From positions 1-61,152 of the forward strand of contig CAIMCI010000401.1 in NCBI GenBank assembly GCA_903839465.1: a DNA stretch of 61,152 bases. The letters run 5' to 3'. Source of the DNA: an uncultured Pseudomonadota bacterium (lineage in GTDB: Bacteria; Pseudomonadota; Gammaproteobacteria; Steroidobacterales; Steroidobacteraceae). Below, piece by piece: positions 2,869 to 54,425 of the stretch. A program made the translations under genes and the position numbers. The notes under the pieces were generated by a model. The model did not search any database, was not told where the DNA came from, and worked only from the letters and a program-made list of their open reading frames with translations. Within the stretch, counting starts at the first letter, position 1. Each line of letters starts with the position of its first letter.

Positions 2869-4467
2869 TCAGGCGTCGGAGTCGGCGCCGATCGCGGCGC
2901 CGGCTTCGGCGAGATACGCCTCGAGCCCGCCTTCCAGCGACCAGACCGTCTGCAGTCCGCGGGCGCGCAGCGCCTCGGTCGTGCCGCGGCTGCGGCTGCC
3001 CCTGGCGCACATCAGCACCGTGCGGCCGCGGCCCTCGATGATCTCCGGGTGATCGAGCAGGCGCTGCATGGGCACGTGCACGCTGGCCACGGGCGGCGGC
3101 CGGCCCGCGACCTCGTCGTCGTTGCGGATGTCGACGAGGAGGTAACCGGCCGCGGCGACCTCGTCGAGGGACGCGAATCGCAACTCGACCGACTCGGCAG
3201 GTTGCTGCCCGAGGCGCACGCAGCCCTGGCTGCAGGCGCGGTTCCGCGGTGCCCTGAGGCGCCGCGTCTCGAGGCTCAGGAGGTCGACCAGCAGCACTTC
3301 GTCGGTCAGTGTGCCCGGCAGGTCGAGCAGGAGCTTGAGCGTTTCCATCGCCTGCAGGCTGCCCAGCACGCCGGGCACCGGCCCGAGGACGCCCGCCTCG
3401 GCGCAGTTGCCGACCACGCCGTCGGGTGTGGCGGTTTCCCAGACGCAGCGCAGGCAGCTGCCCGCGCCGCCACCGCGCACGACCTGCAGCTGGCCCTCGT
3501 ACTGGTAGATGCTCGCAAATACCGCCGCGACCCCGGCCTGCCGGGCGGCATCGTGGACCGCGAAGGCAGTCGCGAAATTGTCGCTGCAATCGACGACGAC
3601 ATCGTAGTCGCCGACCAGCGGCGCGAGGCTGGCCGCCGTTGCCCGCTCGACGAACGGCCGCACGTCGACGTCGGGGTTCAGGGCGCGCAGGCGGCGGGTC
3701 GCGAGCAGCGCCTTCGGCTGACCGACGTCACCCAGCGCGTAGAGCGTCTGCCGGTGCAGATTGCTCGGCGAGAGCGTGTCGCCGTCCATGATGCCGAGCA
3801 CGCCGACGCCGGCGCCAGCGAGGTAGCCGAGCACGGGCACGCCGAGGCCACCGGCGCCGACCACGAGAACGCGCGCGCGGCGCAGCCGCTCCTGGCCGGC
3901 CTCACCGATCTCACGCAGCTGCTTCTGGCGTGAATAGTCGCTCGGTGGCAGCACCGCGGCCGGGGCGTGCGGCTGCGCATGCCCGTGGTCGTGACCCTGG
4001 TGATGGGCGTGGTCGTGCTGGCCGCCGGCCGCGGTCGGCTGCGCGCAGCGCTCGCAGTTCACCCAGCCGGAGTCACCGCCCGCGTAGTGCTCCTTCTTCC
4101 AGATCGGGACGCGGTGCTTGACCTCGTCGATCACGTAGCGGCAGGCCGCGAAGGCCTCGGCACGGTGCGGCGCGGACACGCCGACCCACACGGCGAGTTC
4201 GCCGAGCGAGAGCGCCCCGATGCGATGCACGCAGCGGACATGGCGGACGCCGAAGCGGCGCAGGGCCTCGGCGACGATCCGTTCACCCTCGCGCACCGCG
4301 AGGTCGACGTACGCTTCGTAGTCCAGGCCGAGCACGCGCTGGCCTTCGTTTTCGTCGCGCACCCAGCCTTCGAAGCTGACAAATCCGCCGCACGCGGGAT
4401 CGGCGACCCGGCCCGTCTCGGCTGCGGGGTCGACCGGCTTGCTGGCGAAGGAAAACGTCGCGGCCAC
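2869..4467 (-). CDS. MoaE-MoeB-rhodanese triple fusion (molybdopterin synthase large subunit / MoaD-activating E1 / sulfurtransferase)
   Basis: One 532-residue frame carries three normally separate functions. Residues 1-137 are MoaE, the large subunit that makes the molybdopterin dithiolene, with the active-site lysine motif VPIWKKEH (120-127). Residues 177-417 are a MoeB/ThiF-type E1 that adenylates the MoaD C-terminus: GAGGLG at 204-209, DGD at 228-230, NLHRQ at 236-240, K252, and C355 in NCAEAGV. Residues 424-520 are a rhodanese domain with active loop CARGSR starting at C487. A linker at 138-168 has CERC followed by eight histidines. Probable zinc cysteines are C338/C341 and C412/C416; the second pair is CX3C rather than the usual CX2C. 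The GTG start lies three bases after the moaD stop. There is no stop or frameshift between domains. Confidence 0.93.
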   Translation of the reverse strand: MAATFSFASKPVDPAAETGRVADPACGGFVSFEGWVRDENEGQRVLGLDYEAYVDLAVREGERIVAEALRRFGVRHVRCVHRIGALSLGELAVWVGVSAPHRAEAFAACRYVIDEVKHRVPIWKKEHYAGGDSGWVNCERCAQPTAAGGQHDHAHHQGHDHGHAQPHAPAAVLPPSDYSRQKQLREIGEAGQERLRRARVLVVGAGGLGVPVLGYLAGAGVGVLGIMDGDTLSPSNLHRQTLYALGDVGQPKALLATRRLRALNPDVDVRPFVERATAASLAPLVGDYDVVVDCSDNFATAFAVHDAARQAGVAAVFASIYQYEGQLQVVRGGGAGSCLRCVWETATPDGVVGNCAEAGVLGPVPGVLGSLQAMETLKLLLDLPGTLTDEVLLVDLLSLETRRLRAPRNRACSQGCVRLGQQPAESVELRFASLDEVAAAGYLLVDIRNDDEVAGRPPPVASVHVPMQRLLDHPEIIEGRGRTVLMCARGSRSRGTTEALRARGLQTVWSLEGGLEAYLAEAGAAIGADSDA

Positions 4468-4470
4468 GGC

Positions 4471-4713
4471 TCAGCCCCCGGCGACGGGCGGGATGTAGAC
4501 GATCTCGTCGCCGTCGTTCAGGACCGAGGCCCACGGCGCGAACTCGCCGTTGATGGCGACCTTCATCAGGCTCTCGGCCAGCGTGAAACCGTGGCGCGCG
4601 GTCAGTTCGGCATAGAGCGCGGCGGCGGTCTGGGCCCTCGTCGTCACGGTCTCCCGGCTCGCGCGGGCCTGTTCACGCAGGATCGCGTAGTACTGCACGT
4701 GGACGGTCGTCAC
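4471..4713 (-). CDS. moaD: MoaD, molybdopterin synthase small subunit (sulfur carrier)
   Basis: MoaD is a ubiquitin-fold sulfur carrier. Its C-terminal Gly-Gly is adenylated by MoeB, converted to thiocarboxylate, and inserted into the MoaE active site. The 80-residue product starts [16 protein letters not shown] and ends PPVAGG, with the required terminal di-glycine; [10 protein letters not shown] just before it is typical. The GTG start at 4713-4711 overlaps the TGA of the upstream moaC-mobA gene as GTGA. The stop is followed after three bases by the moaE-moeB-rhodanese gene, so the carrier is encoded immediately ahead of both enzymes that use it. Longer in-frame extensions upstream are shadow sequence of the moaC-mobA gene. 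Confidence 0.93.
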
Positions 4714-6868: not shown

Positions 6869-8065
6869 TCACCAATGATAGATCGGGACGGGCGTGCCGT
6901 GTTCCGCTGTCTGCCCCGGGCCGACCTCGACGAAGCCCGCCGTCCGGGCGAGCGAGGAGAAGTCGCCGGAGCCGTGCGTCGGGTGCGGCACCGCCCGCGG
7001 CCCGCCGGCTCCGGCAACGAGGTCGACGGGCATGAAGAACGCGAGGCCGGCGGGCGCCTGGATCCGCCCGTCCAGTGCAACGAGCGCGGGTGCCGCCGGG
7101 GCGGCGCCTTCGTAGGCCGCCAGCGCCGGCAGGACGTAACGGACAAGGCAGGTCAGGGTCGAGACCGGGTTGCCGGGCAGCCCGAACACGAGTTGGCCGG
7201 CCGGACCCCGCCCGAACCACAGCGGGCGGCCCGGCCGCTGCGCGACCTTATGGAAGACCTTCACGACCCCGTTGGCCTCGAGCGCGGCCGGCACGTAGTC
7301 GAAGCGGCCGGCAGAAACGCCGCCCGACAGGATCACGACATCGTGGGCGGCCAGCAGTTCGCCGAGACGTGCCGTCAGGAGCGGCAGGTCGTCGGGCAGG
7401 TGCCGGTCCACGGTGTCGTGGTGGCCGCGGGCCGAGAGCGCCGCGAGTATCCCGTAGACGTTCGAGCGGCGAACCTGCCAGGGCAGCGGCACCGTCCCGG
7501 GGTCGACGAGTTCATCGCCGGTCGAGACGACGGCGAGGCGCGGCCGGCGGCCGACCGGTACCCGGGCGAACCCCGCGGCCGCCAGGATCGCCAGTTCCGG
7601 CGCGCGCAGGCGCGTCCCCCGCTGCAGCACGCGGGTGCCGGCCGCCTGGTCGAGGCCGCGCCGGTGGATGTTGAGGCCGGCGCTGACGGCGAGATCCTCG
7701 GCCACGGTCGCGTAGCCCGCCTCCAGCGCGAGGCGCTCGACCGGGATGACCGCATCCGCACCGTCCGGCAGGGCGGCGCCGGTCATGATCTCGATGCAGT
7801 CACCGTCCGCCGCGAGCGGCCTCGGCTCACTTCCTGCCCCTTGCGTATGCGCGACACGGAAGCGGCGCCCGCCCGCCGCGTAGGCGGACGAGCGCAGCGC
7901 GATGCCGTCCATGGCGACGCGATCGAACGGTGGCTGGTCGATGTCGGTGTGCGCATCCTCGGCGAGCACGCGCCCGTGCGCCGAACGCAGGGGCACGTGC
8001 TCGATCCGCGGCGTCGCCCCGAGCTGCGCGAGGACCGCCTGCTCGGCGTCCCGGGGCAGGAACAT
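6869..8065 (-). CDS. moeA: Molybdopterin molybdenumtransferase
   Basis: MoeA inserts molybdenum into molybdopterin, normally from the adenylated intermediate made by MogA. The 398-residue protein carries the family blocks: DQPPFDRVAMDGIA near residue 43, the IMTGAALPDGADAVIPVE block near 94, STGDEL, LSGGVSAGRFDYV, GLPGNPVS and PTHGSGDFSSLA near the C-terminus. The ATG at 8065-8063 overlaps by one base the TGA of the preceding small secreted-protein gene (TGATG), so the two are probably translationally coupled. No mogA/moaB or modABC is seen in the window, so the adenylation step and molybdate uptake must be encoded elsewhere or be met by other proteins. Confidence 0.94.
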   Translation of the reverse strand: MFLPRDAEQAVLAQLGATPRIEHVPLRSAHGRVLAEDAHTDIDQPPFDRVAMDGIALRSSAYAAGGRRFRVAHTQGAGSEPRPLAADGDCIEIMTGAALPDGADAVIPVERLALEAGYATVAEDLAVSAGLNIHRRGLDQAAGTRVLQRGTRLRAPELAILAAAGFARVPVGRRPRLAVVSTGDELVDPGTVPLPWQVRRSNVYGILAALSARGHHDTVDRHLPDDLPLLTARLGELLAAHDVVILSGGVSAGRFDYVPAALEANGVVKVFHKVAQRPGRPLWFGRGPAGQLVFGLPGNPVSTLTCLVRYVLPALAAYEGAAPAAPALVALDGRIQAPAGLAFFMPVDLVAGAGGPRAVPHPTHGSGDFSSLARTAGFVEVGPGQTAEHGTPVPIYHW

Positions 8066-8457
8066 CAGTTCTTCGGTGCCGCCGCTTTCGCCTTGTAGGC
8101 ACGCAGCTGCACGTTGAACCGCTCGGCAACGGCCGCCTTGTCCGCCTCGGCCGCATCGACCTTCTTCTGTGCCGCGGCCTGGACCGCCGCCAGCGTTTCC
8201 TTCTCCTTGTCGGAGTACTGCTTCTTCGGGTCGAACTTCGGCGTCTCGGCCATCACGCAGTCGGTGAACGCATCGGTCTGCGCGATGAACTCCTTGACGC
8301 TCTTCTGTCCGGCGACCATTTCTTCCAGAGACGCGGTCGTGCCATCCGGAAAGGTCCCGGGCGCCGTCGGCGCAAGGCAGGCAGCATTGCTGACGCCGGC
8401 GCCGAGCAGGACTACGAGGCCGCAAAGGGCGGTGAGGGAGCGGGTTCGCGACAGCAT
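8065..8457 (-). CDS. Small secreted protein of unknown function heading the molybdenum-cofactor operon
   Basis: I do not recognise a named family. The 130-residue product starts MLSRTRSLTALC and has a clear Sec signal peptide with likely cleavage after GVSNA (about residue 25). The mature part has two cysteines (C27 and C67), which could form a disulfide, a block PDGTTASLEEM, and a lysine/alanine-rich helical stretch (about 78-125) that may form a coiled coil. It is probably periplasmic. The ATG at 8457-8455 has GGGGA five bases upstream, and its stop overlaps the moeA start. Its job in relation to cofactor synthesis is not evident: MoeA is cytoplasmic, this protein is exported. Confidence 0.75.
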   Translation of the reverse strand: MLSRTRSLTALCGLVVLLGAGVSNAACLAPTAPGTFPDGTTASLEEMVAGQKSVKEFIAQTDAFTDCVMAETPKFDPKKQYSDKEKETLAAVQAAAQKKVDAAEADKAAVAERFNVQLRAYKAKAAAPKN

Positions 8458-8529
8458 GAAAATCCCCGAATGTGAGTAGTGGGCCCGCTCTCGGCGGGTA
8501 CCCCGCCATCTTAAATGCCCGGCCCGCTG

Positions 8530-8551
8530 TTGTGTAATTCGCGACTCACAA
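8530..8551. promoter_or_regulatory. Inverted repeat between the Mo-cofactor operon and the SulP gene
   Basis: TTGTG and CACAA form a 5-base inverted repeat separated by 12 bases in the short divergent intergenic region. On the minus strand ATTACA (8541-8536) and TTTAAG sit about 17 bases apart and could be the operon promoter, so the repeat would overlap its -35. It does not fit a CRP site, whose spacer is six bases. The call is tentative. Confidence 0.3.
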
Positions 8552-8598
8552 TTCCGGCCGGAGAAAGTCCTTTCGTGGTCGGCCGGGCTACCGATACC

Positions 8599-10239
8599 AT
8601 GCGCCGCAGCATGATCGCGTTTCTCGAAGCCCGTCGCGCGGGCCTGCTTGGCCGCGAACATCTCGTATCGAACGTTCTGGCCGGGCTGACGGTGGGCGTG
8701 GTCGCCCTGCCGCTTGCCATGGCCTTCGCGATCGCCTCCGGGGCGCGGCCCGAGCAGGGCATCTACACGGCGATCGTGGCGGGCCTCGCGGCCAGTCTCT
8801 TCGGCGGGTCGCGGGTGCAGATTTCCGGCCCGACCGGCGCCTTCGTCGCGGTGCTGGCCACGATCACCGCCGAGCACGGGCTGAACGGCCTCGCCGTCGC
8901 CACCTTCCTTGCCGGGCTGATGCTGCTGGCGATGGGGCTAGCCCGCATGGGCGCCGTGCTCAAGTACATCCCCGATCCGGTCGTCGTCGGCTTCACCTCC
9001 GGCATCGGCCTGATCATCTTCGTCGGGCAGCTGAAGTATTTTCTCGGCGTGACGGTGACCGGCGCCGGCACCCATTTCCACCAGCAGGTGGGCGCCCTGC
9101 TCGCCGCCGCACCGGGCGCGCACCCGGCAACGGTCGCCATCGGCCTGGGTTCGCTCCTGGTCGTGGTTGCCGGAACCCGGGTCCTGCGCCGGATTCCGGC
9201 GCCGCTCGTCGCCCTCGTGCTCGCGACGGCGGCCGAGCGCGTGTTCCGCTTCGACGGCGTGGCGACGATCGGCACGCTGTTCGGCGGCATACCGCGGCAG
9301 ATGCCGCCGGTCGGGCTGCCGCTGGAGGACTTCACCCAGGTCGTGCGCCTGATCGGTCCGGCGTTCACCATCGCGCTCCTCGGCGCGATCGAGTCGCTGC
9401 TGTCGGCGACCATCGCCGATGGCATGGCCAACACGCGCCACGATTCCAACCAGGAGCTGATCGGCCAGGGCATCGCCAACATCCTCGCGCCGCTGTGCGG
9501 CGGCTTCGCCGCGACCGGCGCGATCGCCCGCACGGCCACCAACATCCGCAACGGCGCGACCAGTCCTCTGGCCGGCATCGTCCACTCGGTCTTTCTGGTG
9601 ATCGTGATCCTGATGCTCGCGCCGCTGGCTGCCGACGTTCCGCTCGCGGCACTGGCCGCCATCCTGTTCGTCGTTGCCTGGAACATGAGCGACGTGGCCC
9701 GTTTCTGGAAGATGGCGCGTACCGCGCCGCGCCCGGACGTGGCGATCCTGCTGATCACCTTCCTCCTGACGGTGTTCACCGATCTCGTGGTGGCGGTCAA
9801 TACCGGCGTGATGCTCGCCTCGCTCGTTTTCATGCGGCGCATGGCCCAGGCGGTCAGTGTCGAGGCGCAGTCCGCCGAATTCCTGTCGGTCGAGGCGGGC
9901 CTCGGCCAGTGGCGCCTGCCGCCCGGGACCCTCGTCTACCAGATCGACGGACCGTTCTTCTTCGCCGCTGCCGAAAAACTCGATGCGACGCTGCGCCACA
10001 GCCAGAGCCGGCCGGCGACGCTCGTGCTGCGCCTCGGCCGCATGCCTTTCATCGACTCCACCGGTGTCGCCGCGCTGGAGAAGATCGTCGCCGACTTTTC
10101 CCGGCACGGAACGCGGGTCGTGCTCTGCGAGGTGACGCCGAACGTCGAGGCCAAGCTCGGCCGGGCGGGGCTTCTCGCCCAGCTCGGCGCGGACGCGACC
10201 TATCCGTCCCTCGCCGACTTCGCCCGCCGGAACGGCTAG
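8599..10239 (+). CDS. SulP family anion transporter with STAS domain
   Basis: SulP proteins move sulfate, bicarbonate or related oxyanions across the inner membrane. This one has a hydrophobic region of some 10-14 helices with VALPLAMAFAIASG near the N-terminus and ISGPTGAFVAVLATI, both SulP signatures, and a C-terminal cytoplasmic STAS domain (about residues 410-540) with FIDSTGVAALEKI. I start it at the ATG at 8599 (546 residues); a frame open from 8515 would add 28 poorly conserved residues, and no strong ribosome site separates the choices. It is divergent from the molybdenum-cofactor operon across about 140 bases. The substrate cannot be read from sequence; sulfate, bicarbonate and molybdate are all possible. 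Confidence 0.88.
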   Translation: MRRSMIAFLEARRAGLLGREHLVSNVLAGLTVGVVALPLAMAFAIASGARPEQGIYTAIVAGLAASLFGGSRVQISGPTGAFVAVLATITAEHGLNGLAVATFLAGLMLLAMGLARMGAVLKYIPDPVVVGFTSGIGLIIFVGQLKYFLGVTVTGAGTHFHQQVGALLAAAPGAHPATVAIGLGSLLVVVAGTRVLRRIPAPLVALVLATAAERVFRFDGVATIGTLFGGIPRQMPPVGLPLEDFTQVVRLIGPAFTIALLGAIESLLSATIADGMANTRHDSNQELIGQGIANILAPLCGGFAATGAIARTATNIRNGATSPLAGIVHSVFLVIVILMLAPLAADVPLAALAAILFVVAWNMSDVARFWKMARTAPRPDVAILLITFLLTVFTDLVVAVNTGVMLASLVFMRRMAQAVSVEAQSAEFLSVEAGLGQWRLPPGTLVYQIDGPFFFAAAEKLDATLRHSQSRPATLVLRLGRMPFIDSTGVAALEKIVADFSRHGTRVVLCEVTPNVEAKLGRAGLLAQLGADATYPSLADFARRNG

Positions 10240-16560: not shown

Positions 16561-19500
16561 TCAGCCGCCGACCAGTCGCCGTACCGACTGCAGCGCGACC
16601 GACAGGGTCGCGAAGTCGCTGGCCTTGGTGGACTCCATTTCGCCAACCGTCCGCCGCAGCGACTCGACCTCGCGGGCGCGCGTCGCCAGCCACTGGTCGG
16701 TGGCGCGCACCGAATCCAGGCGCGGCCGGTCGCGCAGCGCAACGTCGGTCAGGGTGCGCTGCATTTCGTACAGGCCCTCGCGCAGCGTGTTGCGCGCTAC
16801 CGCCTGCCAGTGGCCCTGGGCACCGAGGCCTTCGATCTGCAGCCGCAGCCAGTCGAGGTCGAGGCGCTGGCCCAGGTGCAGATAGGCGCGCGCGACCTCG
16901 AAGAGATCGTGCTTGCGGCTCTGCGCGATGTCGACGACGTCCAGGCCCGAGTACAGGAGCTCCAGCGTCGAGATCCGGAACGCGAGGCGCTCCGGCACGC
17001 CCTTGGCCCTGTAGGCCGTGTTCTGCGCGAAGATCCGTTCGGCAAGCCGGCCATCGACCAGCTGGCCGGCGTCGCGCGCCAGGTCGGTGAGCCCCTTGCG
17101 CAGCTCGCCGACGGCTTTTTCGACGTCCAGGTCGCGGCGGTGCGCCAGTACCCAGTAGGTCGCGTGGCGCAGGAACCGGGTCGTCCGGTAGTGCATGTCG
17201 TACTGGATGTCGGCCGGGATGCGGTTGTCGAGCGCCTCGATTTCACCCCAGATCTCGCGCATGGCCGAGCATTCGCGCGCAATCGCGTACGCCCGGGCAA
17301 TGGCGCCGACACCGGCGCCCGTGTCCTCGGCGGCGCGCACCGCGAACACCGGCCCCATGCGGTTGACGAGGCTGTTGGTCGTGGCCGTGGCGATGATCTC
17401 GCGCTTCAGCGGATGCAGCGCCAGCAGGTCGCCGTAGCGGCGCGGCAGCGCGTCGGGGAAGTATCTCTCCAGCTCGTTGGAAAGGTAGCGGTCTTCCGGC
17501 ACGTCGGAGGCGATCAGCTGGTTGTAGAGCCAGATTTTCGAATAGGACAGCACCATCGACAGTTCCGGCCGGGTCAGCCCGCGCCCCTTGGCGATGCGTT
17601 CGGCAAGTGCCTCGTCGCTCGGCAGGTTCTCCAGCTCGCGATCGAGGTCTCCGCTGCGCTCCAGCACCTTGATCACGTAGCCGTGCTCCGAGGCGCGATC
17701 CAGCGCCCGCGACTCGAGCACGCTCAGCGCCTGGCTCTGCAGGTAATTGTTGCGCAGGACGAGAGCGGACACGTTGTCGGTCATCGCCGCGAGCAGCTTG
17801 TCCCGTGCCGGGCGCCGCAGGCCGCGCTTCTGGGCAGCCACGCCGAGGAGGATCTTGATGTTGACCTCGAGGTCCGAGCAGTTGACGCCGCCGGAATTGT
17901 CGATGAAGTCCGTGTTGAGGCGGCCGCCATGGAGCGCGTACTCGACCCGGCCCAGCTGTGAGAAGCCGAGGTTGCCACCCTCGCCAACGACCTTCGCGCG
18001 CAGTGTCCGGCCGTCGACGCGCACGGCATCGTTGGCGCGGTCGCCCACGTCGGCATTCGCCTCGGTCGACGCCTTGACGTAGGTGCCGATGCCGCCGTTC
18101 CACAACAGGTCTACGTCCAGCGTCAGGATGGCCTTCACGATCTCGGTCGGCGTCGCCGACGTGCCCGTCAGGTTGAGCAGGGCCCGCGCCTCGCGTGGCA
18201 GAGGGATCGATTTCTCCTGCCGGGACCAGACGCCGCCGCCGGCCGAGATGGCCTTGCGCGAGTAGTCATCCCAGCTCGAGCGCGGCAGCGCGAACAGCCG
18301 CTGCCGTTCGGCAAAGGACTTGGCCGCATCGGGCGTGGGATCGATGAAGATGTGCTGGTGGTTGAAGGCCGCGACGAGGCGGATCTGCGGGGAGCGCAGC
18401 ATGCCGTTGCCGAACACGTCGCCGGACATGTCGCCGATCGCGGCCACCGAGAACGGCGTGCTCTGCGTATCAAGGCCGATCTCGCGGAAATGGCGCTTGA
18501 CGCACTCCCAGGCGCCGCGGGCGGTGATGGCGATCTTCTTGTGGTCGTAGCCGGCCGAACCGCCGGAGGCGAAGGCATCGCCCAGCCAGAACCCGTGCGC
18601 TTCGGCGATGGCGTTGGCGGTGTCGGAAAACGTCGCCGTGCCCTTGTCGGCGGCAACCACCAGGTAAGGATCGTCAGGGTCGCGGCGTACGGTGAGCGCC
18701 GGTGGCACGACCTTGCCGCCGACGATGTTGTCGGTGACCTCGAGCAGCGCGCGCATGAAGTCGCTGTAGCAGCCGACCACCTCGCGCGCGATGTCGTCGC
18801 GCGCGGTGGGCAGCTTCTTGCAGACGAAGCCGCCCTTGGCGCCGACCGGCACGATCACCGTGTTCTTGACGTTCTGCGCCTTCATGAGGCCGAGCACTTC
18901 GGTGCGGAAGTCCTCGCGCCGGTCGGACCAGCGGATGCCGCCGCGGGCCACCCGGCCCTTGCGCAGGTGCACGGCCTCGACCCGCGGCGAGTAGACCCAG
19001 ATCTCGAACATGGGGCGCGGCTCGGGCAGGCCAGGCACCCTGGCCGGATCGATCTTGAAGGTGATGGTCGGCCGCTGGCTGCCGTCGCTGCCGCGCTGGA
19101 AGAAGTTGGTGCGCAGCGTGGCATCGATGGCGGCGCGAAAGGCGCGCAGGATGCGGTCATCGTCGACCCGCGTGATCTTCTGCAGGTCCTCGTCGAGCGC
19201 CGCGTGCAGCCGCTTCGCTTCCCGTTCGCGCCGGGCCGCGGGCAGCGCCGGATCGAAGCGCGCGAGGAAGAGCTTCGCGAGCCGGTTCGCCGTACGCGCA
19301 TTGGCCGCGAGCACGCTTTCCATGTAGGACTGGCTGAAAGGCATGCCGGTCTGCAGGAGCCAGCGGCAGTAGGCGCGCAACAGCGCCGTCTCGCGCCAGC
19401 TCTGGTTGGCGGCGAGTACGAGCCGGTTGAAGCCATCGTTCTCCGCGATCCCCGCCCACACCGCGCGCACGGTCTCGATCAGGCGCGGACCGTCGGTCGG

Positions 19501-21429
19501 CACGTCGATCGCCAGGCCCTGCGGATGCTCAAGCTCGAAGTCCTGGATCCACATCCCGGCGAGTTCGCCTGCCAGCGCGTACGGCCGTTCGCTGATCAGG
19601 CGCAGGCCGAGGTTCTCGATCGTCGGCATCGCATCCGAGATCGGCAGTGTCGACCCGGCGCGGTAGATCTTCAGCTGCACCTTGGCGGCCGGCATGCCGT
19701 CCAGCCGGTAGAGCCGCAGGCGCGTTTCGCCCGGTGCCGCGCGCAGCGCCTCGAGCTCGGCAATGTCGGCGACCGCGCCCTGCGCCGTCGTATCGGCGTG
19801 ATACGCCACCGGTACGGCCTCGACGTAGCGGCCGCTCAGCTGGCGCGCAGCCGACTCGTCGTGCTCGGCCGCGAGCGCCGCCTCCAGCTCGTCGGCCCAG
19901 GTCCGGGTCGCCGCGGCGAGGCGCGCCTCGATGGCGTTGGCGTCGACACGCGGCTCGCCCTGCCGGTCGTCGTTCGCGCCGGTACGCACGAGCAGGTGGA
20001 CCCGCGCCAGCGCGGAATTAGACAGCTGGACCTGTGAATCGACGGCTGCACCGTGCAGCGCGTCGCGCAGCACGGCCTCCAGGCGCTGGCGTACCGTCGT
20101 GTTGTAGCGGTCGCGTGGCACGTAGACCAGGCAGGAGTAGAAACGGTGGAAGGCGTCGCGGCGCATGAACAGGCGCACCTGCTGGCGCTCATAGAGGTTC
20201 ACGACGCCGCGGGCAAGCCGGATCAGTTCGGCGACGCTCGCCTGGAACAGCTCGTCGCGCGGAAAGTTTTCCAGTACGTGTATCAGCGCCTTGCCGTCGT
20301 GGCTGGTCGGCGAGAGCCCGAAATGCGCGATGATCTTGGCCAGCTTGTTGCGCAGCACGGGGATGTCGCGCGGATTGAGGCTGTAGGCACTGGATGTCCA
20401 CAGGCCGAGGAAGCGGTGCTCGCCGGCGACCTCGCCCTTGGCATCGAAGATCTTGATGCCGACGTAGTCTAGGTATTCGGCACGATGGACGGTCGACAGC
20501 GAGTTCGCCTTCGTGATGACCATGAGCTCGCGTTGCCGCGCCTGCTCGCGCAGGGTGCCCTCGATGATCGTCGGCCGCGGTGCGACGCCGGCGTCTGCCA
20601 CGCGCAGGATGCCGAGACCGGAGTCGGCGGCCGGCTCCAGCCTGTCGCTGCTCCGCCCGCGCCTGAGCTTGTAGCGGCGGTAGCCGAGGAAGGTGAAGTG
20701 GTTGTCGTCCATCCACTCGAGCATGTCGCGCGCTTCGATCACATCGCCGCTCTTGCCGTGCGCGGAGACCTCCAGGTGCGTGGCCACCTCGCGGGCGCGA
20801 CGACGCATCTCCGACCAGTCGGCGACGGAGGCGCGCACGTCGCCGAGCGTCGCCAGCAGGCGCAATTGCAGCGAGGCGATGACCGCGGGGTCGGCCTCCC
20901 GGTCGATCTCATAGAACTGCCAGGACTCGAGCTGGCCGTGCTCGCCGGGTTCCTCGAGGATCTCGGTCAGCCGGCCGCGGCGGTCGCGCAGGACCGACAG
21001 GATCGGGTGGGCGATGTACTGCAGCGACAGCCCGGCCTGATTGAGCACCATGCTGATCGAGTCGACCAGGAAGGGCATGTCGTCGCAGACGACGGCCACG
21101 ACCGTGTGCGGCGAGACGTAGCCCTCCGTGGCGGCGTCCGGGTTGCAGACGTGCACCCACGGCATTCCCGGCTTGCGGTTGAGTCCGGCGTTAAGGTGCC
21201 ACAGCGCGGCGCCGGCCAGGTCGTCGAGGTTGCGGGCGGCCAGGTCTTCCTCGGCCACGCCGCGGTAGTAATGCCGGACGAACTTTGGCAACAGCGGCTT
21301 GAGCGTGCCGGCCGTGGCCGCCCAGTTGCCACCGCGGCGCGCGGTCTGGCCGCGGGTAAGCAGGGCGCCCGCCCTGTCTACCACGCGTTCGATCAGGCGC
21401 AGGCGGCTGGCGGGGATTTTTCCGAGCAT
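16561..21429 (-). CDS. gdhB: NAD-specific glutamate dehydrogenase, large (about 180 kDa) type
   Basis: Oxidatively deaminates glutamate to 2-oxoglutarate with NAD, mainly in amino-acid catabolism. At 1,622 residues it matches the large GDH class known from Pseudomonas. A long N-terminal regulatory region (about 1-700) includes the ACT-like parts, then the catalytic core has [19 protein letters not shown] and [11 protein letters not shown] with the catalytic lysine, followed by the Rossmann segment around [14 protein letters not shown] and [15 protein letters not shown] helical C-terminal tail completes it. I start at the ATG at 21429, with GGAG eleven bases upstream; the frame stays open to 21654 but that part is arginine/proline-rich shadow sequence. 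Confidence 0.96.
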
Positions 21430-21577
21430 CGTTGGCAGTCTCCGTGGCAAGTCGGGCAGGAGCACGTTAAGCGGGCCACGGTCGGCTGGCCGGTAAGGGC
21501 TGCCGGCAGGGGCCGAAACGGGATCGACACACGCCTTCAGGCACCAGTTTAGTGCACGAAGCGTATCAAGGGTGGGT

Positions 21578-22087
21578 CTATGCTGGCGACCGCCGGCTGG
21601 CGCGGGCGGTGGCGCGGCGTGGCGCCTCGGGTGTGGCCGCCGCGGCCGTGGCACCGAGCAGCTTGTCGAGAGCGACGTCCAGCGTGCGTCGCTCGGTCGC
21701 CGACAGCGCCGTCAGCAGGGACCGCTCGTAGCCCTGCGCCCACGGCGCGATCTCGCCATAGACCGTCCAGCCGCGCGCGGTCAGCGCGAGGCTGCTGCTG
21801 CGCCGGTCGCGGGCGACGCTCCGGCGCTGCAGCAAACCGCGCGTTACGAGGCCGGCCACCGCGCGGCTGACGGCGACCTTGTCCATGGCACCCCGGGCCG
21901 TGACCTCGGCGGCGGTCAGGCCCGGACGGCGGGCGAGGACGGCCAGGGTGCGCCATTGTGGAATCGACAGACCGTAGCGGTCCGCGTAGTGCGTCGCGAT
22001 CGCGGCGCTGATCGCGCCGGTCAGGACGGCCAGGCGGTAAGGCAGGAACCGGTCCAGTTCCAGGACCTCAGGGCTGGCTTTCGGCAC
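21578..22087 (-). CDS. MarR family transcriptional regulator
   Basis: A 169-residue winged-helix regulator. Residues about 35-125 form the MarR domain: IPQWRTLAVLARRPGLTAAEV, then the recognition region AMDKVAVSRAVAGLVTRGLL and the wing RDRRSSSLALTARG. The basic tail after residue 145 is alanine/arginine-rich. The likely start is a GTG at 22087 (VPKASPEV). It is divergent from hppD, and a perfect inverted repeat lies between them, so it most likely represses hppD and itself. MarR-type control of tyrosine breakdown genes is known in some gammaproteobacteria; whether the ligand here is an aromatic acid is inference. Confidence 0.88.
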   Translation of the reverse strand: MPKASPEVLELDRFLPYRLAVLTGAISAAIATHYADRYGLSIPQWRTLAVLARRPGLTAAEVTARGAMDKVAVSRAVAGLVTRGLLQRRSVARDRRSSSLALTARGWTVYGEIAPWAQGYERSLLTALSATERRTLDVALDKLLGATAAAATPEAPRRATARASRRSPA

Positions 22088-46923: not shown

Positions 46924-48180
46924 ATGATCACTATCGGCAGACAAACGACCGCTCGCGTGGCGTCGCGCTTGCCCCTCCTCGGGCTGGCGGCCAGCGTGCT
47001 GCTGGCGGCGTGTCAGCCGAATGCGCCCGCGACGGCCGATGCGGCCGCCGGGCGTGCCGGGGCGCGCGGCGCCGGCGGCAAGGCCGATCCTGCCGGTCGG
47101 CCGGTACCGGTCGGAGTCGGACAGGTCGTCAGGGCGGACCTGCCCGTGTCCGTGATGGCATTGGGCACCGTCACACCGATCGCCACGGTCACGGTCAAGT
47201 CCCGCGTCGACGGCCAGGTCATGCGCGTCGCCTTTACCGAGGGCCAGACCGTGCGGGCCGGTGACCTGCTGGCGCAGATCGATCCACGGCCGTTTGACGT
47301 CCAGTACGAGCAGGCCGCCGGCCAGCTCAATCGCGACGCGGCACTGCTCGCGACGGCCCGGCTCGACCTCGAGCGCTATCGGCTGCTGTACTCGCAGGAT
47401 TCGATCGCCAAGCAGCTCGTCGACGCTCAGGAGAGTCAGGTCCACCAGTACGAAGGCGTGGTGCGGACGGACGAGGCCAACGTCGCAAACGCGCGCCTGC
47501 AGCAGGGTTACGCGCGGGTGGCGGCGCCGGTCAGCGGCCGGGTCGGCCTGCGGCAGGTCGACGCGGGCAACGTCGTCCACGCCAGTGATTCCACCGGCAT
47601 CGTCGTCATTACCCAGGTCCGGCCGATAACCGTCGTGGGTACCGTACCGCAGGACAGCGTACCGGCGATCCTCAAGCGCCTGCAGGCACACGAACCGATA
47701 CCGGTGGAAGCCTATGATCGGGACAACTCGGCTCGACTGGCGGTCGGCACCCTGCTGACACTCGATAACCAGATCGACGTGACAACCGGTACGGTCAAGC
47801 TCAAGGCGCAGTTCTCCAACGAGGATGACGCCCTGTTCCCCAACCAGTTCGTCAACCTCAAGGTCACCTACGGCGCCCTGAAAGACGCCACGGTCGTACC
47901 GACCGCCGCCGTGCAGCAGGGGCCCGACGGCAATTTCGTCTATGTGGTCCAGGAGGACTCGACGGTACGGCTTCAGCCGGTCAAGGTCGTCAGGGCGGTT
48001 GGCGAGCTGACCGCGATCGATTCGACGCTGGTGCCCGGCGCGCAGCTGGTCATCGACGGCATCGACCGGCTGAAGGATGGCGCCAAGATCAGGGCCGCGG
48101 ACGCGCCCGGCGCGGCGGTGCCCGACCCGAAGAAAAAGGCCAATGGCAAAGGCCGATCGTCCGGCCCGGCAAAGCCCTAG
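46924..48180 (+). CDS. mdtA: RND efflux periplasmic adaptor (MdtA-like)
   Basis: The membrane-fusion protein of a tripartite efflux pump, linking the RND permeases to the outer-membrane channel. The 418-residue protein has a signal sequence with lipobox LAAC (about C29), so it is probably a lipoprotein, then a lipoyl half-motif around VKSRVDGQVMRVAFTEGQTV, an alpha-hairpin (about 125-190), and beta-barrel and membrane-proximal domains (NQIDVTTGTVKLKAQF). The C-terminal lysine-rich tail is not unusual. It is first in the mdtABC-nodT operon. Confidence 0.92.
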   Translation: MITIGRQTTARVASRLPLLGLAASVLLAACQPNAPATADAAAGRAGARGAGGKADPAGRPVPVGVGQVVRADLPVSVMALGTVTPIATVTVKSRVDGQVMRVAFTEGQTVRAGDLLAQIDPRPFDVQYEQAAGQLNRDAALLATARLDLERYRLLYSQDSIAKQLVDAQESQVHQYEGVVRTDEANVANARLQQGYARVAAPVSGRVGLRQVDAGNVVHASDSTGIVVITQVRPITVVGTVPQDSVPAILKRLQAHEPIPVEAYDRDNSARLAVGTLLTLDNQIDVTTGTVKLKAQFSNEDDALFPNQFVNLKVTYGALKDATVVPTAAVQQGPDGNFVYVVQEDSTVRLQPVKVVRAVGELTAIDSTLVPGAQLVIDGIDRLKDGAKIRAADAPGAAVPDPKKKANGKGRSSGPAKP

Positions 48181-48195
48181 CCAGCCCGTGTCCGC

Positions 48196-51100
48196 ATGAA
48201 TCCGTCCGCGACCTTCATCGAGAGACCCGTCGCGACGACGCTACTGATGGTCGCGATCGTGCTGGCCGGAGCCTTCGCGTTCCGCTGGCTGCCGCTCTCG
48301 GCGCTGCCGGAAGTCGACTACCCGACGATCCAGGTCGTCACGCTCTATCCAGGTGCCAGTCCCGAAGTCGCGGCCTCCGCCATAACCGCTCCTCTCGAGC
48401 GTCAGTTCGGGCAGATCCCGGGCCTGAAGCAGATGGCGTCGACCAGCTCGGGCGGCGCTTCGGTCATCACGCTGCAGTTCTCGCTGTCGATGACCCTGGA
48501 CGTGGCAGAACAGGAAGTCCAGGCCGCGATCAACGCTGCTGCCACCCTGCTGCCGACCGATCTGCCGGCGCCACCCATCTACAACAAGGTCAACCCCGCC
48601 GACGCGCCGGTCCTGACGCTGGCCGTTACGTCCGACGCCCTGCCGCTGGCGGCGGTCGAGGACCTGGTGGATACGAGACTCGCCCAGAAGCTGTCGCAGA
48701 TTCCGGGTGTCGGACTTGTCAGTCTGTCGGGTGGGCGCCGACCGGCCATCCGGCTGCAGATCAATCCCACGGCCCTCGCCGCGAAGAATCTTTCCCTTGA
48801 GGACGTGCGGACGGCGGTCGCCGCCGCCAATGTCAACATGCCCAAGGGCAATTTCGATGGCCCGACGCGCTCGCAAACCCTGTCGTCCAATGATCAGCTG
48901 ACCGGCGCGGAGGACTACGACCGCCTCGTGGTCGCCTACAGGAACGGCGCGCCGGTCCGTATTCGGGATATCGGACGCGCCGTCCTCGACGCCGAAAACG
49001 TAAGGATTGGCGCGTGGATGAACACGGCGCCGGCGATCATCGTCAATGTCCAGCGCCAGCCAGGCGCCAATGTCATCGACGTCGTCGACCGCATCAAGGT
49101 CCTGCTGCCGACGCTGACCGGTGGACTGCCGGCCTCGGTGAAAGTCGTCACCCTGACTGACCGGACGACCACCATCCGTGCCTCTGTGCACGATGTGGAG
49201 ATCGAGCTCCTGCTCGCGGTAGTGCTCGTCGTGCTCGTGATGTTCGCCTTCCTGCGTGATCCGTGGGCCACGCTGATTCCGAGCCTCGCGGTGCCCGTGT
49301 CTCTGGTCGGCACGTTCGGCGTTTTGTACCTGCTCGGCTTCAGCATCAACAACCTGACCCTGATGGCGCTGACCATCGCCACCGGTTTTGTCGTTGACGA
49401 TGCGATCGTCATGATCGAGAACGTGGCCCGCTACGTCGAGGCCGGTGACGAGCCGCTGGTCGCCGCGCACAAGGGATCGGCGCAGATCGGTTTTACGATC
49501 ATATCGCTCACCGTGTCCCTGCTCGCGGTACTCATACCGTTGCTTTTCATGGGCGATGTCGTGGGCCGCCTGTTCCGCGAATTCGCGATCACGCTCGCCG
49601 TTTCGATAGTCATTTCGGCGATCGTGTCGCTGACGCTGACGCCGATGCTGTGCGCAAAGCTCCTGCGGCCGGAGGATGGGCGTACGCCCGGGCGGGTGGC
49701 CAGGCTGTGCGCCGCCGGCTTCGACTGGTCGCTCAGCATGTATGCACGTTCTCTGGCCTGGGTTCTCGACCACCAGCCGATCACACTGCTGGTCGCCGTC
49801 GGCACGGTCGTGCTCACGGTGCTGCTGTACATCGCGGTGCCGAAGGGATTCTTCCCGGTGCAGGACACGGGCGTGATTCAGGGCGTCTCGGTCGGCGACC
49901 AGTCGACGTCCTACGCCGCGATGGCCGACCGCCACGCGCGGCTCGCGGAGGTCGTCCTGCGGGATCCCGACGTCGAATCACTCAGTTCCTTCATCGGCGT
50001 GGACGGTGTCAACGCGACGCTCAACAGCGGGCGATTCCTGATCAACCTCAAGGCGCACGCGGCGCGCTCCGCAAGCGCGGCCCAGATCGCCGACCGGATC
50101 GGACTGAAGCTCGCCGCCGAGGTGCCGGGAATCACGCTGTACCTTCAGCCGGTGCAGGATATGACGATCGACGATTCGGTCGGGCGCGGGCAGTACCAGT
50201 TCACGCTGCAGGCGACCGATCCGGCCCAGCTGGAAACCTGGACACCGCGGGTCGTGGAGCGTCTGAGGGGTATCGCCGGCCTGACCGGAGTCACCAGTGA
50301 CTGGCAGACCGGCGGCCTGCAGGTTTACGTCGATATCGATCGGGACACGGCCGCCCGCTTCGGCGTCACGCCGGCGGCGATAGACAACATTCTCTATAGC
50401 GCATACGGCCAGCGCCTCGTCTCGACCATCTTCACGCAGACCAACCAGTACCGGGTGGTTCTGGAGGTAGGCCCGGAATGGCGGGCAAGCCCGGCGGCGC
50501 TGGCCGCGCTCTACGTTCCCTCGACGACGGGAGCCGCCGTACCGCTCGGGGTGGTCGCGAAAATCAGCGAAAGGTCCGGTGCTCTTTCGGTTGGCCACCT
50601 CGGCCAGTTTCCGAGCGCGACGGTATCGTTCAACGTCGCGCCGGGTTCGTCTCTGGGCGCGGCGGTCAAGTCCATCGAGCAGGCGGAAGCGGGGCTCGGC
50701 ATGCCGGCGAGCATGCAGACGACGTTTCAGGGAGCGACGCTCGCCTTTCGGGCCACCGCGCAATCCGAGATCCTGCTGATTCTTGCGGCGATCGTCGTGA
50801 TGTATATCGTTCTTGGCGTGCTCTACGAGAGCTATGTCCATCCGGTGACGATCCTGTCGACACTGCCCTCGGCCGGCGTCGGCGCGCTCCTCGCGCTCAT
50901 GCTGTCGGGCACCGATCTGGGGATCATCGGCATCATCGGCATCATTCTCCTGATCGGTATCGTGAAGAAGAACGCGATCATGATGATCGATTTCGCGCTG
51001 GACGCCGAACGCCGGGAGGGGAAGTCGCCGCTGGAGGCGATCCATCAGGCCTGCCTGCTGCGGTTCCGGCCGATCCTCATGACCACGCTGGCGGCGCTGT

Positions 51101-51312
51101 TCGGCGCGCTGCCGCTGATGCTCGGCACCGGCGTGGGCGCGGAACTGCGCCACCCGCTCGGCATCACGATGGTGGGCGGCCTGATCGCCAGCCAGGCGTT
51201 GACCCTTTTTACGACTCCTGTCGTCTACCTGACCTTCCATCGCTGGGTCGAACGCTTCGATCCCGAGCCTCTGCCGGAGGGTGCCGTCGCCGACGGTGCC
51301 GGCGGTTCATGA
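48196..51312 (+). CDS. mdtB: RND multidrug efflux permease MdtB-like
   Basis: A 1,038-residue inner-membrane proton-driven permease of the HAE1 RND family. It starts [17 protein letters not shown], has the conserved EVDYPTIQV loop, the helix-4 proton-relay segment [15 protein letters not shown] with paired aspartates, and the [15 protein letters not shown] segment in the second half. Twelve helices and two large periplasmic loops are expected. Its stop overlaps the next permease gene as ATGA, the usual MdtB-MdtC arrangement. Those two act as a mixed trimer in E. coli, where bile salts and novobiocin are substrates. Confidence 0.93.
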
Positions 51313-54300
51313 ACCTGTCGACACCGTTCATAAAGCGGCCGGTCGCTACCGCGTTGCTGACCCTCGGCGTGGTCCTGGCAGGGCTCGTGGCCTACGGCCT
51401 GTTGCCGGTCGCTCCGCTCCCCCAGGTCGACTTTCCGACCATCGCGGTTCAGGCGTCGCTGCCCGGCGCTTCTCCGGATACGATTGCGAGCAGCGTGGCC
51501 ACGCCGCTCGAGCGGTCCCTGGGGCGCATCGCCGGGCTCGCCGAGATGACGTCCTCCAGTTCGCTCGGCAGTACGCGGGTGATACTGCAATTCGACCTGA
51601 CGCGCAGCGCCGACGGCGCGGCGCGGGACGTGCAGGCGGCCATCAACGCGGCGCGCGCCCTGTTGCCGACCGGTCTGCCTGGTAACCCGACCTACCGGAA
51701 GGTCAATCCCGCCGACCCGCCGATCCTGATTCTGGCCCTTACCTCGCCCACCCGGTCGCGTGGCCAGTTGTACGACGCGGCCTCGACAGTGCTCGCCCAG
51801 CGCCTTGCCCAGGTCGAAGGGGTAGGGCAGGTCAACGTGGGCGGCAGTTCCCTGCCGGCAGTGCGCGTGGAGCTGAACCCGGAGGCGCTGGCGGCGACGG
51901 GCGTGTCGCTCGAGCAGGTACGGACGGCGCTCGGGGCCGCCAATGCCAACCGACCGAAGGGTGCGCTCGAGGGCGGCGGCAAACGCTGGCAGATCTATGC
52001 CAGCGATCAGGCGAAGGTCGCGGCGGAATTCCGTCCGCTGGTCGTCGCCTTCCGCAACGGCGCGCCGATCCGGCTGTCCGACGTGGCAACGGTCACGGAC
52101 TCCATCCAGGACACCCGCAACGCCGGGCTGGCGAACGGCCGGCCCGCGGTGCTGCTGCTGATCAATCGCCAGCCGGGTGCGAACATCGTCACGACGGTCG
52201 ATCGCATCCGGGCACTGCTGCCGCTGCTCCGGGCCTCGGTGCCGGCGGACATCAGCGTCGATGTCATGATCGATCGCACGCCGACGATCCGCGCCGCCCT
52301 GCGCGACGTGGAACGAACGCTCGCGATCTCGATCCTGCTGGTCGTCCTCGTGGTTTTCCTTTTCCTCCGTTCTCCCCGCGCGACGCTGATCCCGGCCGTG
52401 GCCATTCCCGTGTCGCTGTGCGGCACGTTCTGCGTCATGTGGGCCCTTGGCTACAGCCTCAACAATCTGAGCCTGATGGCGATCACCGTGGCGACGGGCT
52501 TCGTCGTCGACGATGCGATCGTCGTGGTCGAGAACGTCATGCGGCACATCGATCGCGGGCTGAGTCCCGTGCAGGCAGCGCGGCAAGGAGCCAGCGAGGT
52601 CGGCTTCACCGTCGTATCGATCAGCGTGTCGCTGGTCGCGGTATTCATCCCAATTCTGCTCATGGGCGGCATTCTGGGTCGCTTCTTCAAGGAGTTTGCC
52701 GTCACGCTGTCAACTGCCGTCCTCGTCTCGATGGTCGTTTCCCTGACCCTGACGCCGATGATGTGCTCGAGGCTGTTACGCCATTCCATCGACGTCGTGG
52801 ACGACGCACGGCGGCGAACCTTCGTCTCGAGGCTCGCCGGCCACGCGCATTACCTTTTCGATCGGCTGGTCGGCGGCTATTCGCGCAGCCTGCGCTGGGC
52901 GCTTGATCACGCCGGGCTGGTCATGGTCGTCCTGGCCCTGACGATCGTCCTGAACGGCTACCTGTTCGTGATCGTGCCGAAGGGCTTTTTCCCGCAGCAG
53001 GACGTCGGCAGGATGGTCGGTGGCATTCAGGCCGACCAGAGCATCTCGTTCCAGTCCATGCAGACGAAGTTCGCCGAATTCATCCGGATCGTCCGTGCTG
53101 ATCCGGCAGTGGAGAACGTGGTCGGCTTCACCGGCGGTGGACAGGTCAATACGGGCAACATCTTTGTCTCCCTCAAGCCTCTGTCGTCGGGACGCGAACC
53201 GATCGATGCCGTCATGGCGCGGCTCCGGCCGCAGCTCGCTCAGGTGGCCGGCGCGAGCCTGTTCCTGCAGCCGGTCAGCGATCTGCGGATAGGCGGCCGG
53301 CCGAGCAATGCGGTCTACCAGTACACGCTGCAGTCCGACAGCCTCGGGGATCTCGCCGTCTGGGAACCGCGCATACGTGCTGCGATGACGGCGCTTCCGG
53401 AGCTCGTCGACGTGAATACGGACCAGCAGGACCGCGGCATGGAGCTGAAGGTCGTGATGGACCGCGACCTCGCGCGCCGCTACGGCGTGGCCGCCAGGGA
53501 CGTCGACAGCGCGCTGGGTGACAGCTTCAGCCAGGCGCAGGTGTCGGTGATCTACTACCCGCTGAACCAGTATCACGTGGTCATGAATGTCGCGCCTAAG
53601 TATGCCCAGGACGCTTCCGCGCTTGATGCCGTCTACGTGGCGGGAGCGGGGGGCGGTCTCGTACGGCTGAGCGAAGTCGCGAGGGTGGTGCCGGTCAATG
53701 CGAAGCTTGCTGTCAATCACCAGGGCCAGTTCACGGCATCGACGATTTCATTCAATCTCAAGGGCGGGGCATCGCTCGGGGCGGCCGCGAAGGCCATCGA
53801 CTCGGCGCTCGTGAACATAGGCGTGCCGCGCTCGGTGCGTGGCGGATTTCAGGGAGCGGCCCAGGCATTCCAGTCTTCGCTCAGCAGCATGCCGGCCCTC
53901 ATCCTCCTGGCTGTGCTTTCGGTCTACATCGTGCTCGGGATTCTCTACGAGAGTTACCTCCATCCGCTCACGATCCTCTCGACGCTGTTTTCGGCCGGCG
54001 TCGGCGCGCTGCTCGCGCTTCTGCTGCTGAAAAGTGAGTTCAACATCATCTCGGGAATCGGCCTGCTGCTGCTGATCGGGATCGTTAAGAAGAATGCGAT
54101 TATGATGGTTGATTTCGCGCTGGTCGCCGAGCGTGGCGGGCTGGCTCCCAAGGAAGCGATTTACCAGGCGTGCCTGGTGCGCTTCCGGCCGATTCTGATG
54201 ACTACGCTCGCGGCGATGTTCGGGGCGATACCTTTGGCCATCGGCCATGGCGACGGCGCCGAATTGCGCAACCCGCTCGGCATAGCCATCGTGGGTGGGT

Positions 54301-54425
54301 TGCTGGTCAGCCAGGTTCTGACGCTGTACACGACCCCGGTCGTCTACCTCCTGCTCGAGTGCCTGGCGCGACGCGTCCGCGGCCGTGAGCGGACGGTCGC
54401 TCCTGGACGCGAGGTGGCGGCATGA
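51309..54425 (+). CDS. mdtC: RND multidrug efflux permease MdtC-like
   Basis: The second RND permease, also exactly 1,038 residues, starts at an ATG overlapping the mdtB stop. It has [44 protein letters not shown] and [18 protein letters not shown], so both proton-relay aspartates are kept as in its partner. The frame open upstream to 50478 is shadow sequence of mdtB. The near-equal lengths and conserved motifs indicate a tandem duplication that became an obligate pair. The ATGA overlap with the NodT gene completes a four-gene operon. Confidence 0.93.

Follow-up and report, generated by a model that had tools for sequence, protein, structure and literature searches.

Can the large subunit of molybdopterin (MPT) synthase, the enzyme that activates its sulfur carrier and a sulfur donor for that carrier form a single protein, and what would such a chain do for a carrier that has to visit all three? 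The question is raised by a gene in a 61,152-nucleotide stretch of DNA (the window) from an uncultured bacterium of the family Steroidobacteraceae. According to excerpts of PMC5372717, E. coli MoaD is adenylated in a (MoaD-MoeB)2 complex, sulfurated to MoaD-COSH and then reassociates with MoaE2; each MPT takes two sulfurs, the rhodanese domain of human MOCS3 is the direct donor, and MOCS3 C239 helps to release the URM1 thiocarboxylate. For Uba4, an arginine of the second subunit reaches the ATP site, and it has been proposed that the rhodanese comes to the carrier and not the carrier to the rhodanese (excerpts of PMC7527816). The mycobacterial proteins MoeBR and MoeZR have thiosulfate sulfurtransferase activity (excerpts of PMC3227635).

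Anatomy of the fusion gene and its cluster

The gene and its neighbours in the molybdenum cofactor (Moco) pathway are as follows.

2869..4467, minus strand: moaE-moeB-rhodanese fusion gene; 532 residues, GTG start, one open frame, three Pfam domains
4057..4467, minus strand: MoaE domain (MPT synthase large subunit), residues 1-137; PF02391 match over residues 9-119
3952..4056, minus strand: linker, residues 138-172, with CERC and a His-rich stretch
3229..3936, minus strand: E1 (MoeB/ThiF) adenylation domain, residues 178-413; PF00899
2908..3153, minus strand: rhodanese domain, residues 439-520; PF00581; presumed persulfide cysteine C487, codon 3007-3009
4471..4713, minus strand: moaD, the separate sulfur carrier; 80 residues, ending in PPVAGG; PF02597
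4710..5777, minus strand: moaC-mobA fusion gene; PF01967 and PF12804
5800..7146, minus strand: moaA; longest frame, profile match from residue 117; TIGR02666, 377 bits against a cut-off of 284
6869..8509, minus strand: moeA; longest frame, profile match from residue 154; MoeA_N, MoCF_biosynth and MoeA_C

The fusion gene closes a minus-strand cluster that runs moeA, moaA, moaC-mobA, moaD, fusion gene. It opens with GTG at 4467 and its stop codon ends at 2869, with no internal stop; the preliminary description had correctly placed MoaE, MoeB/E1 and rhodanese in a single frame free of stops and frameshifts at these coordinates, and the strand is minus. The TGA of moaD is in frame with the fusion gene, with one codon (GCC) between it and the GTG start. 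The moaC-mobA gene has the domain order of NCBIfam PRK14500 (MoaC/MobA), scoring 344 bits, well below the cut-off of 606. Six named Moco enzymes, a rhodanese and the carrier are carried on five chains in this cluster. A SulP-STAS anion transporter (8515-10239, plus strand) adjoins it; elsewhere, the window holds a large NAD-glutamate dehydrogenase of 1697 residues (16561-21654, minus strand) and an efflux cluster made up of a membrane-fusion protein, two tandem RND pumps and an outer-membrane channel (46924-55894, plus strand).

All three domains score above their curated Pfam cut-offs: MoaE (9-119) with E 2.3e-35 and 121.7 bits against 23.4, ThiF (178-413) with E 4.9e-68 and 229.3 bits, and rhodanese (439-520) with E 9.3e-7 and 29.7 bits against 22.2. 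These scores, together with 67 aligned homologous frames at 38-65% identity, exclude a chance open frame.

Residues R37, K117 and K124 of the MoaE part align with R39, K119 and K126 of E. coli K-12 MoaE, which we take to be the active-site arginine and two lysines. In the E1 part, R180, N236, R239, K252 and D296 correspond to R14, N70, R73, K86 and D130 of E. coli MoeB, and C338, C341, C355 and C412 to C172, C175, C187 and C244; the roles assigned to the MoeB residues, in the ATP site and the zinc site, are those we assume for the E. coli protein. The sole gap among the MoeB positions checked is C247, the fourth zinc cysteine, for which there is no aligned counterpart: the first zinc pair (C338/C341) is present, and the second reads C412-x3-C416 instead of CxxC. 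The rhodanese loop C487-ARGSRS is also present. VPIWKKE, GAGGLG, C355 and C487, the key features named as intact in the earlier statement, are all there; the second zinc pair is atypical.

The NCBIfam MoeB models stay below their cut-offs on the E1 part (PRK05690, 214.6 against 266 bits; TIGR02355, 169.1 against 376.55), as does the E. coli-type MoaE equivalog on the MoaE part (81.9 against 175). Two CxxC zinc motifs mark MoeB and MoeBR off from MoeZ (excerpts of PMC3227635), and the fused E1, with its C-x3-C pair, departs from that pattern. From its aligned residues we propose that the fused E1 works like MoeB, without claiming strict MoeB membership for it.

The predicted structure contains three confident domains (mean pLDDT 90.4, pTM 0.70), and pLDDT falls below 50 at linker residues 144-167, which are predicted to be disordered. 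The E1 domain of the model resembles MoeB and ThiF, and superimposes on MoeB 1jw9_B with a Z-score of 33.9 and an rmsd of 1.9 over 235 residues. The top Foldseek match is Uba4 (6yub_A), which covers E1 and rhodanese with the domains placed differently (rmsd 17.5). These structural matches (VIA-align, Foldseek) cover mainly the E1; the identity of the first domain as MoaE rests on sequence. A relative with a short linker (L038) gives a similar model, with pTM 0.66 and disorder at residues 137-143. The placing of the domains relative to one another is predicted with low confidence.

Relatives, split forms and the linker

A scan of GTDB genomes, of the kind the preliminary description had called for, found the same three-domain order in one frame in 68 of 80 loci, these being the best 80 out of at least 554 relatives. 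Such a ranking may put split genes low, and they are probably under-sampled. In 67 loci a single alignment in one stop-free frame starts no later than query residue 30 and ends no earlier than residue 440, and the 68th (L078) is split only in the BLAST output. Three of the 67 frames touch contig ends (L005, L029, L066), L029 being cut inside the rhodanese. The remaining 12 loci comprise five with an in-frame stop, two with the genes in different frames, one in which the moaE/E1 junction lies inside a run of N (L077), three cut by contig ends (L071, L076, L081), and L064.

According to the names that their record titles give, the 67 fused loci of this best-80 set span ten phyla: Pseudomonadota (52), Kiritimatiellota (4), Hydrogenedentota, Melainabacteria and Bdellovibrionota (2 each), and Lentisphaerota, Chlamydiota, Krumholzibacteriota, Armatimonadota and Zixiibacteriota (1 each). 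The loci outside Pseudomonadota are nearly all from metagenome-assembled genomes (MAGs), so that individual phyla could be binning errors. The MAG tag stands on 49 of the 67 titles and is absent from 18, one of which belongs to a complete genome of Dyella jiangningensis; the fusion is carried by named strains of Dyella, Rhodanobacter and Povalibacter.

Closer to the window, a sample of 117 genomes from its order contains MoaE in 102, with exactly one match each. This match lies inside a frame longer than 500 residues in 11 of the 102, window included, and in the other ten, too, a single frame carries all three domains. In four of the 11, there is no ThiF-family match besides the fused E1. Within the window's family, nine of 16 sampled genomes are fused and seven are not; since these seven do without it, the fusion is not essential there. 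At the level of the class, at least two of 369 genomes have a fusion match, a lower bound set by the strict threshold (E 1e-90). None of 72,556 plasmid records holds 80% of the protein in one place. The arrangement is widespread but patchy, and not peculiar to the window's genome.

Across an alignment of 68 rows (the 67 fused loci and the window), R37, K117, K124, K125, N236, R239, Q240, K252, D296, C338, C341 and C355 are invariant. R180 (66/68) and C412 (64/68) are less strict, and the second zinc pair is CxxC, CxxH, CxxxC or longer among the relatives. C487 is found in 67 rows, the exception being L029, truncated at its contig end. A moaD match lies 223-412 nt upstream, measured start-to-start between the matched parts, in 77 of the best 80 of at least 554 relatives, and its C-terminus is GG in all 77. 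Two of the three loci without it start at a contig edge (L066, L081); the third, L052, lacks a MoaD match, and its matches to moeA, moaA, moaC and mobA lie 4-7 kb downstream. The stop of moaD is in frame with the fusion in eight of the 64 loci where it was located, and the window's arrangement is not the rule. A four-domain chain including MoaD was also considered and rejected, as MoaD lies inside the open frame of MoaE in none of the 77 loci.

The split forms come close to the fused ones. In five loci (L011, L016, L023, L048, L072) a single in-frame stop (TGA, TGA, TGA, TAG and TAA, respectively) separates moaE from the E1 gene, with an ATG 6-12 nt after the first base of the stop; the contig of L072 ends ahead of any rhodanese. 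In L074 and L080, moaE and the E1 gene are in different, overlapping frames. L064 (5985-7482), from a Krumholzibacteriota MAG, is open apart from one TAG inside the E1 domain, which replaces a glutamine invariant in 68 aligned fused E1 domains (SNLHR*TLYD); it may be an error, a broken gene or a case of recoding. A separate internal start for the E1 half was sought and rejected: of the 68 fused frames, 35 lack any start codon within the 20 codons ahead of E1, and a start codon occurs there without a Shine-Dalgarno-like site in 31 and with one in two. The test for such a site is weak, since only 10 of 68 predicted starts of the genes themselves have one.

An E1 tree, which had likewise been suggested beforehand, groups fused and adjacent E1s together. 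With 109 rows, fused and adjacent forms are separated from all separate E1s on one branch (SH-aLRT 99), and 88 rows, with the long ones (L146, L167, L169, L170) omitted, give the same split (99). With outgroups that include E. coli MoeB, Rhodococcus MoeZR, Paracoccus and Burkholderia E1-rhodanese proteins and a Halorubrum E1, the clade has support of 96/83; one separate E1 on a very long branch (L169) falls inside it and the bootstrap is unsettled. L077 is labelled adjacent in the 109-row tree and in the MoaE tree, and was dropped from the outgroup and 88-row trees. Seven adjacent forms (six loci and G058) make up a clade (100/99) within the larger one that they share with the fused forms in the outgroup tree. 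The fused rows as a single clade are rejected (p-AU 0.0037), with a minimum of three changes on the 88-row tree. One old fusion and two splits would suffice; repeated fusion might too, given the likely under-sampling of split forms. The MoaE tree, with only 141 columns, is mostly unresolved.

The stretch from W135 to the E1 domain varies from 13 to 73 residues (median 32 over 68 rows; some have only 13-19) and is rich in histidine: 19%, as opposed to 2.7% elsewhere in the proteins, with at least four His in 51 of 68. Many unfused MoaE proteins of the same order have a similar tail (WVNCERC or close to it), in some cases with His, and in the loci with an in-frame stop the MoaE tail ends at that stop, directly ahead of E1. 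The linker is therefore best read as an old MoaE tail, not as a new insert. The CxxC/His-rich tail of fused and unfused MoaE is a possible metal site. Such tails also occur in L086-L088, L126, L128 and L130-L132, followed by a His-rich stretch in some rows, fused or not. In two loci of the window's phylum but another class (L143, 880-2490, minus strand; L145, 1537-2640, plus strand), MoaE shares a frame with a downstream MoCF_biosynth (MoaB/MogA-type) domain. MoaE has a CPGCEAA tail there, and L143 also has a His-rich stretch separating the two domains; by its domains this is another MoaE fusion through a similar tail.

Copy number and the proposed relay

The window's genome (3.86 Mb in 421 contigs, called 100% complete), searched with Pfam profiles, contains one MoaE, one ThiF-family E1 and one ThiS/MoaD-family match, all at the fusion locus, and two PF02738 (molybdenum-binding domain) matches as Moco clients; the same search gave no match to ThiG. 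As no other MoaE, ThiF or ThiS copies were found, the one chain should be both the MPT synthase large subunit and the E1 of the only carrier found, and the single ThiS/MoaD-family match and the lack of a ThiG match leave no other E1 client in these results. In all 16 genomes searched behind fused loci, there is exactly one MoaE match, the fused one (one of them, G867, is probably the same as G003 of the order sample, to judge by the coinciding positions of their matches). The fused E1 is the sole ThiF-family match in four of these 16, and the other 12 have one to four more; it is not always the lone ThiF-family protein. In three fusion-bearing genomes (G863, G864, G866) a separate second E1 is a Rhodanese-MoeB.

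We consider it likely, at roughly 80%, that the chain is the only MPT synthase large subunit found for the window's cell, covalently linked to the E1 and sulfurtransferase by which its carrier is recharged. The anatomy, residues, single copy, conservation and free adjacent MoaD behind this reading are direct observations; the relay chemistry we infer from relatives, and since the fused chain has all the parts of known relays, the same chemistry is the natural reading. Transposed to this protein, a cysteine desulfurase or another sulfur donor would load C487 of the rhodanese with persulfide, and the E1 domain would adenylate the C-terminal Gly80 of free MoaD. Sulfur would then move from C487 to form the MoaD thiocarboxylate, probably aided by C355, and MoaD would leave E1 and insert its tail into the MoaE domain (R37, K117, K124), passing the sulfur to cPMP. 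Spent MoaD would return, as one MPT needs two sulfurs. A dimer of the chain, accompanied by two free MoaD, is probably the working unit: the ATP site of Uba4 uses an arginine of the second subunit, equivalent to R180 here, and there are two large subunits in MPT synthase.

The flexible linker would allow MoaD to meet either site and would keep the stations at 1:1:1. The preliminary description proposed that MoaD could shuttle between domains without release. MoaD is, however, a separate polypeptide that has to leave E1 to enter MoaE, so the fusion can at most shorten its trip and not remove the release step. What it can do is raise the odds of a charged MoaD meeting a nearby MoaE; like the chain dimer, any kinetic gain from tethering is something we infer. 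A stronger form, which we regard as rather unlikely, makes the chain dimer a dedicated relay in which free MoaD would cycle repeatedly between E1 and MoaE of one particle before escaping, with the CxxC/His-rich tether also binding a metal such as zinc. If true, a ubiquitin-like carrier would be channelled in bacteria, in a family with every station fused and the carrier left free.

The most serious competitor, to which we give somewhat less than even odds, is that the genes were joined neutrally, by loss of the stop codon between close neighbours: the chemistry would be the same, the domains would act as if separate and tethering would add nothing. It denies the gain from tethering only, and its odds overlap with those of the joined synthase and recharging enzymes favoured above. 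Adjacent unfused versions one in-frame stop away (five loci) or with overlapping frames (L074, L080) speak for it, as do the nesting of the seven adjacent forms among the fused ones, the rejection of the fused rows as a single clade, the nine-to-seven division within the window's family and a linker that ranges from 13 to 73 residues. Against it, fusions with invariant catalytic residues occur in ten phyla, and one might expect a purely neutral joint to be broken more often.

Cleavage within the linker, after which ordinary MoaE and MoeB-rhodanese would do the work, is improbable in our view. Residues 144-167 are predicted to be disordered, and the mycobacterial MoaD-MoaE fusion MoaX must be cleaved to work (excerpts of PMC4326299); but the cut in MoaX frees the C-terminus of MoaD, whereas no free end is needed at the MoaE-E1 joint, and some linkers have just 13-19 residues. 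That the fused E1 mainly serves some other sulfur carrier or a protein-modification route, with MoaE as a passenger, would fit the rhodanese-bearing E1s elsewhere that, in excerpted sources, serve CysO, Urm1 or siderophore carriers; the single ThiS/MoaD-family match and the absence of a ThiG match in the Pfam search, which a very divergent carrier could escape, and the adjoining moaD in 77 of the best 80 of at least 554 relatives make it a very remote prospect. Finally, the fragmented assembly and the MAG tags on most of the fused relatives' titles could suggest two genes joined by an assembly or sequencing error, a reading of negligible weight that is ruled out for practical purposes by the same frame recurring in 68 loci, the untagged genomes and the complete Dyella jiangningensis genome among them.

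Relation to known fusions

MoeB-rhodanese and MoaD-MoaE fusions, already cited as known in the preliminary description, are in print, together with MoaD-MoeB(R) and MoaC-MoaE fusions (excerpts of PMC1779556, PMC3227635, PMC4326299 and PMC11237513). The window's protein resembles MOCS3, Cnx5, Uba4 and the bacterial MoeBR and MoeZR in having E1 followed by rhodanese, the same ATP-site residues and a catalytic rhodanese cysteine. It differs from them in the added MoaE domain and in its C-x3-C second zinc pair, and in the trees the fused E1 belongs to a different group from the MoeZR, MoeBR, archaeal E1 and E. coli MoeB that were sampled. The Rhodanese-MoeB proteins of the PRK08762 type also combine E1 and rhodanese and give the best NCBIfam match of the E1 part (278.6 bits, against a cut-off of 449), but their rhodanese is N-terminal, before E1 (L148-L150), and they lack MoaE; the order here is E1-rhodanese.

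Fusions of the MoaX type (Mycobacterium, Deinococcus; Paenibacillus L146) also join a part of MPT synthase to a pathway partner. There the carrier is the fused part and must be cut (excerpts of PMC4326299), whereas in the window MoaD has a frame of its own and the carrier is the part left free. In L146, on a plasmid of Paenibacillus cellulosilyticus (3668-4450, plus strand), MoaD and MoaE share one frame, with PPVSGG and then a linker, followed by a separate E1 frame. The MoaD-MoeB and MoaD-MoeBR proteins of Archaea, Rokubacteria and NC10 are likewise fusions of the Moco sulfur relay with MoeB(R), but with the carrier fused and without MoaE (excerpts of PMC11237513). MoaC-MobA (PRK14500), from the same cluster as our protein, is also a fusion of two Moco steps, but of other ones.

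The full-text literature searches, with most subscription papers outside their scope, returned no paper for the names of a MoaE-MoeB fusion; broader ones gave none among the titles listed, and none appears in the excerpts of PMC6147048 (molybdenum comparative genomics), PMC2700814, PMC5720804 and PMC9370521. The literature searched contained no report on the activity of a MoaE-MoeB-rhodanese protein and no characterised fusion of this order, in agreement with the initial impression that it had not been studied. The NCBIfam models matched by most members are named for single parts (MoeB, MoeZ, UbaA, ThiF, MoaE), and among the matches listed for the window's protein there is no model spanning MoaE and E1. 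A 2009 survey of the E1-like superfamily may list the architecture. This is thus an architecture, common enough, for which we could not find a name; its parts are already known.

For the fused MoaE-MoeB-rhodanese family, the loci suggest a rule: the stations fuse and the carrier does not (0 of 77). The family provides a natural single-chain sulfur relay of Moco synthesis alongside natural split versions, some of them one stop codon apart, and with both at hand a clean test is possible of whether joining the E1, the donor and the acceptor speeds the cycle of a ubiquitin-like carrier.
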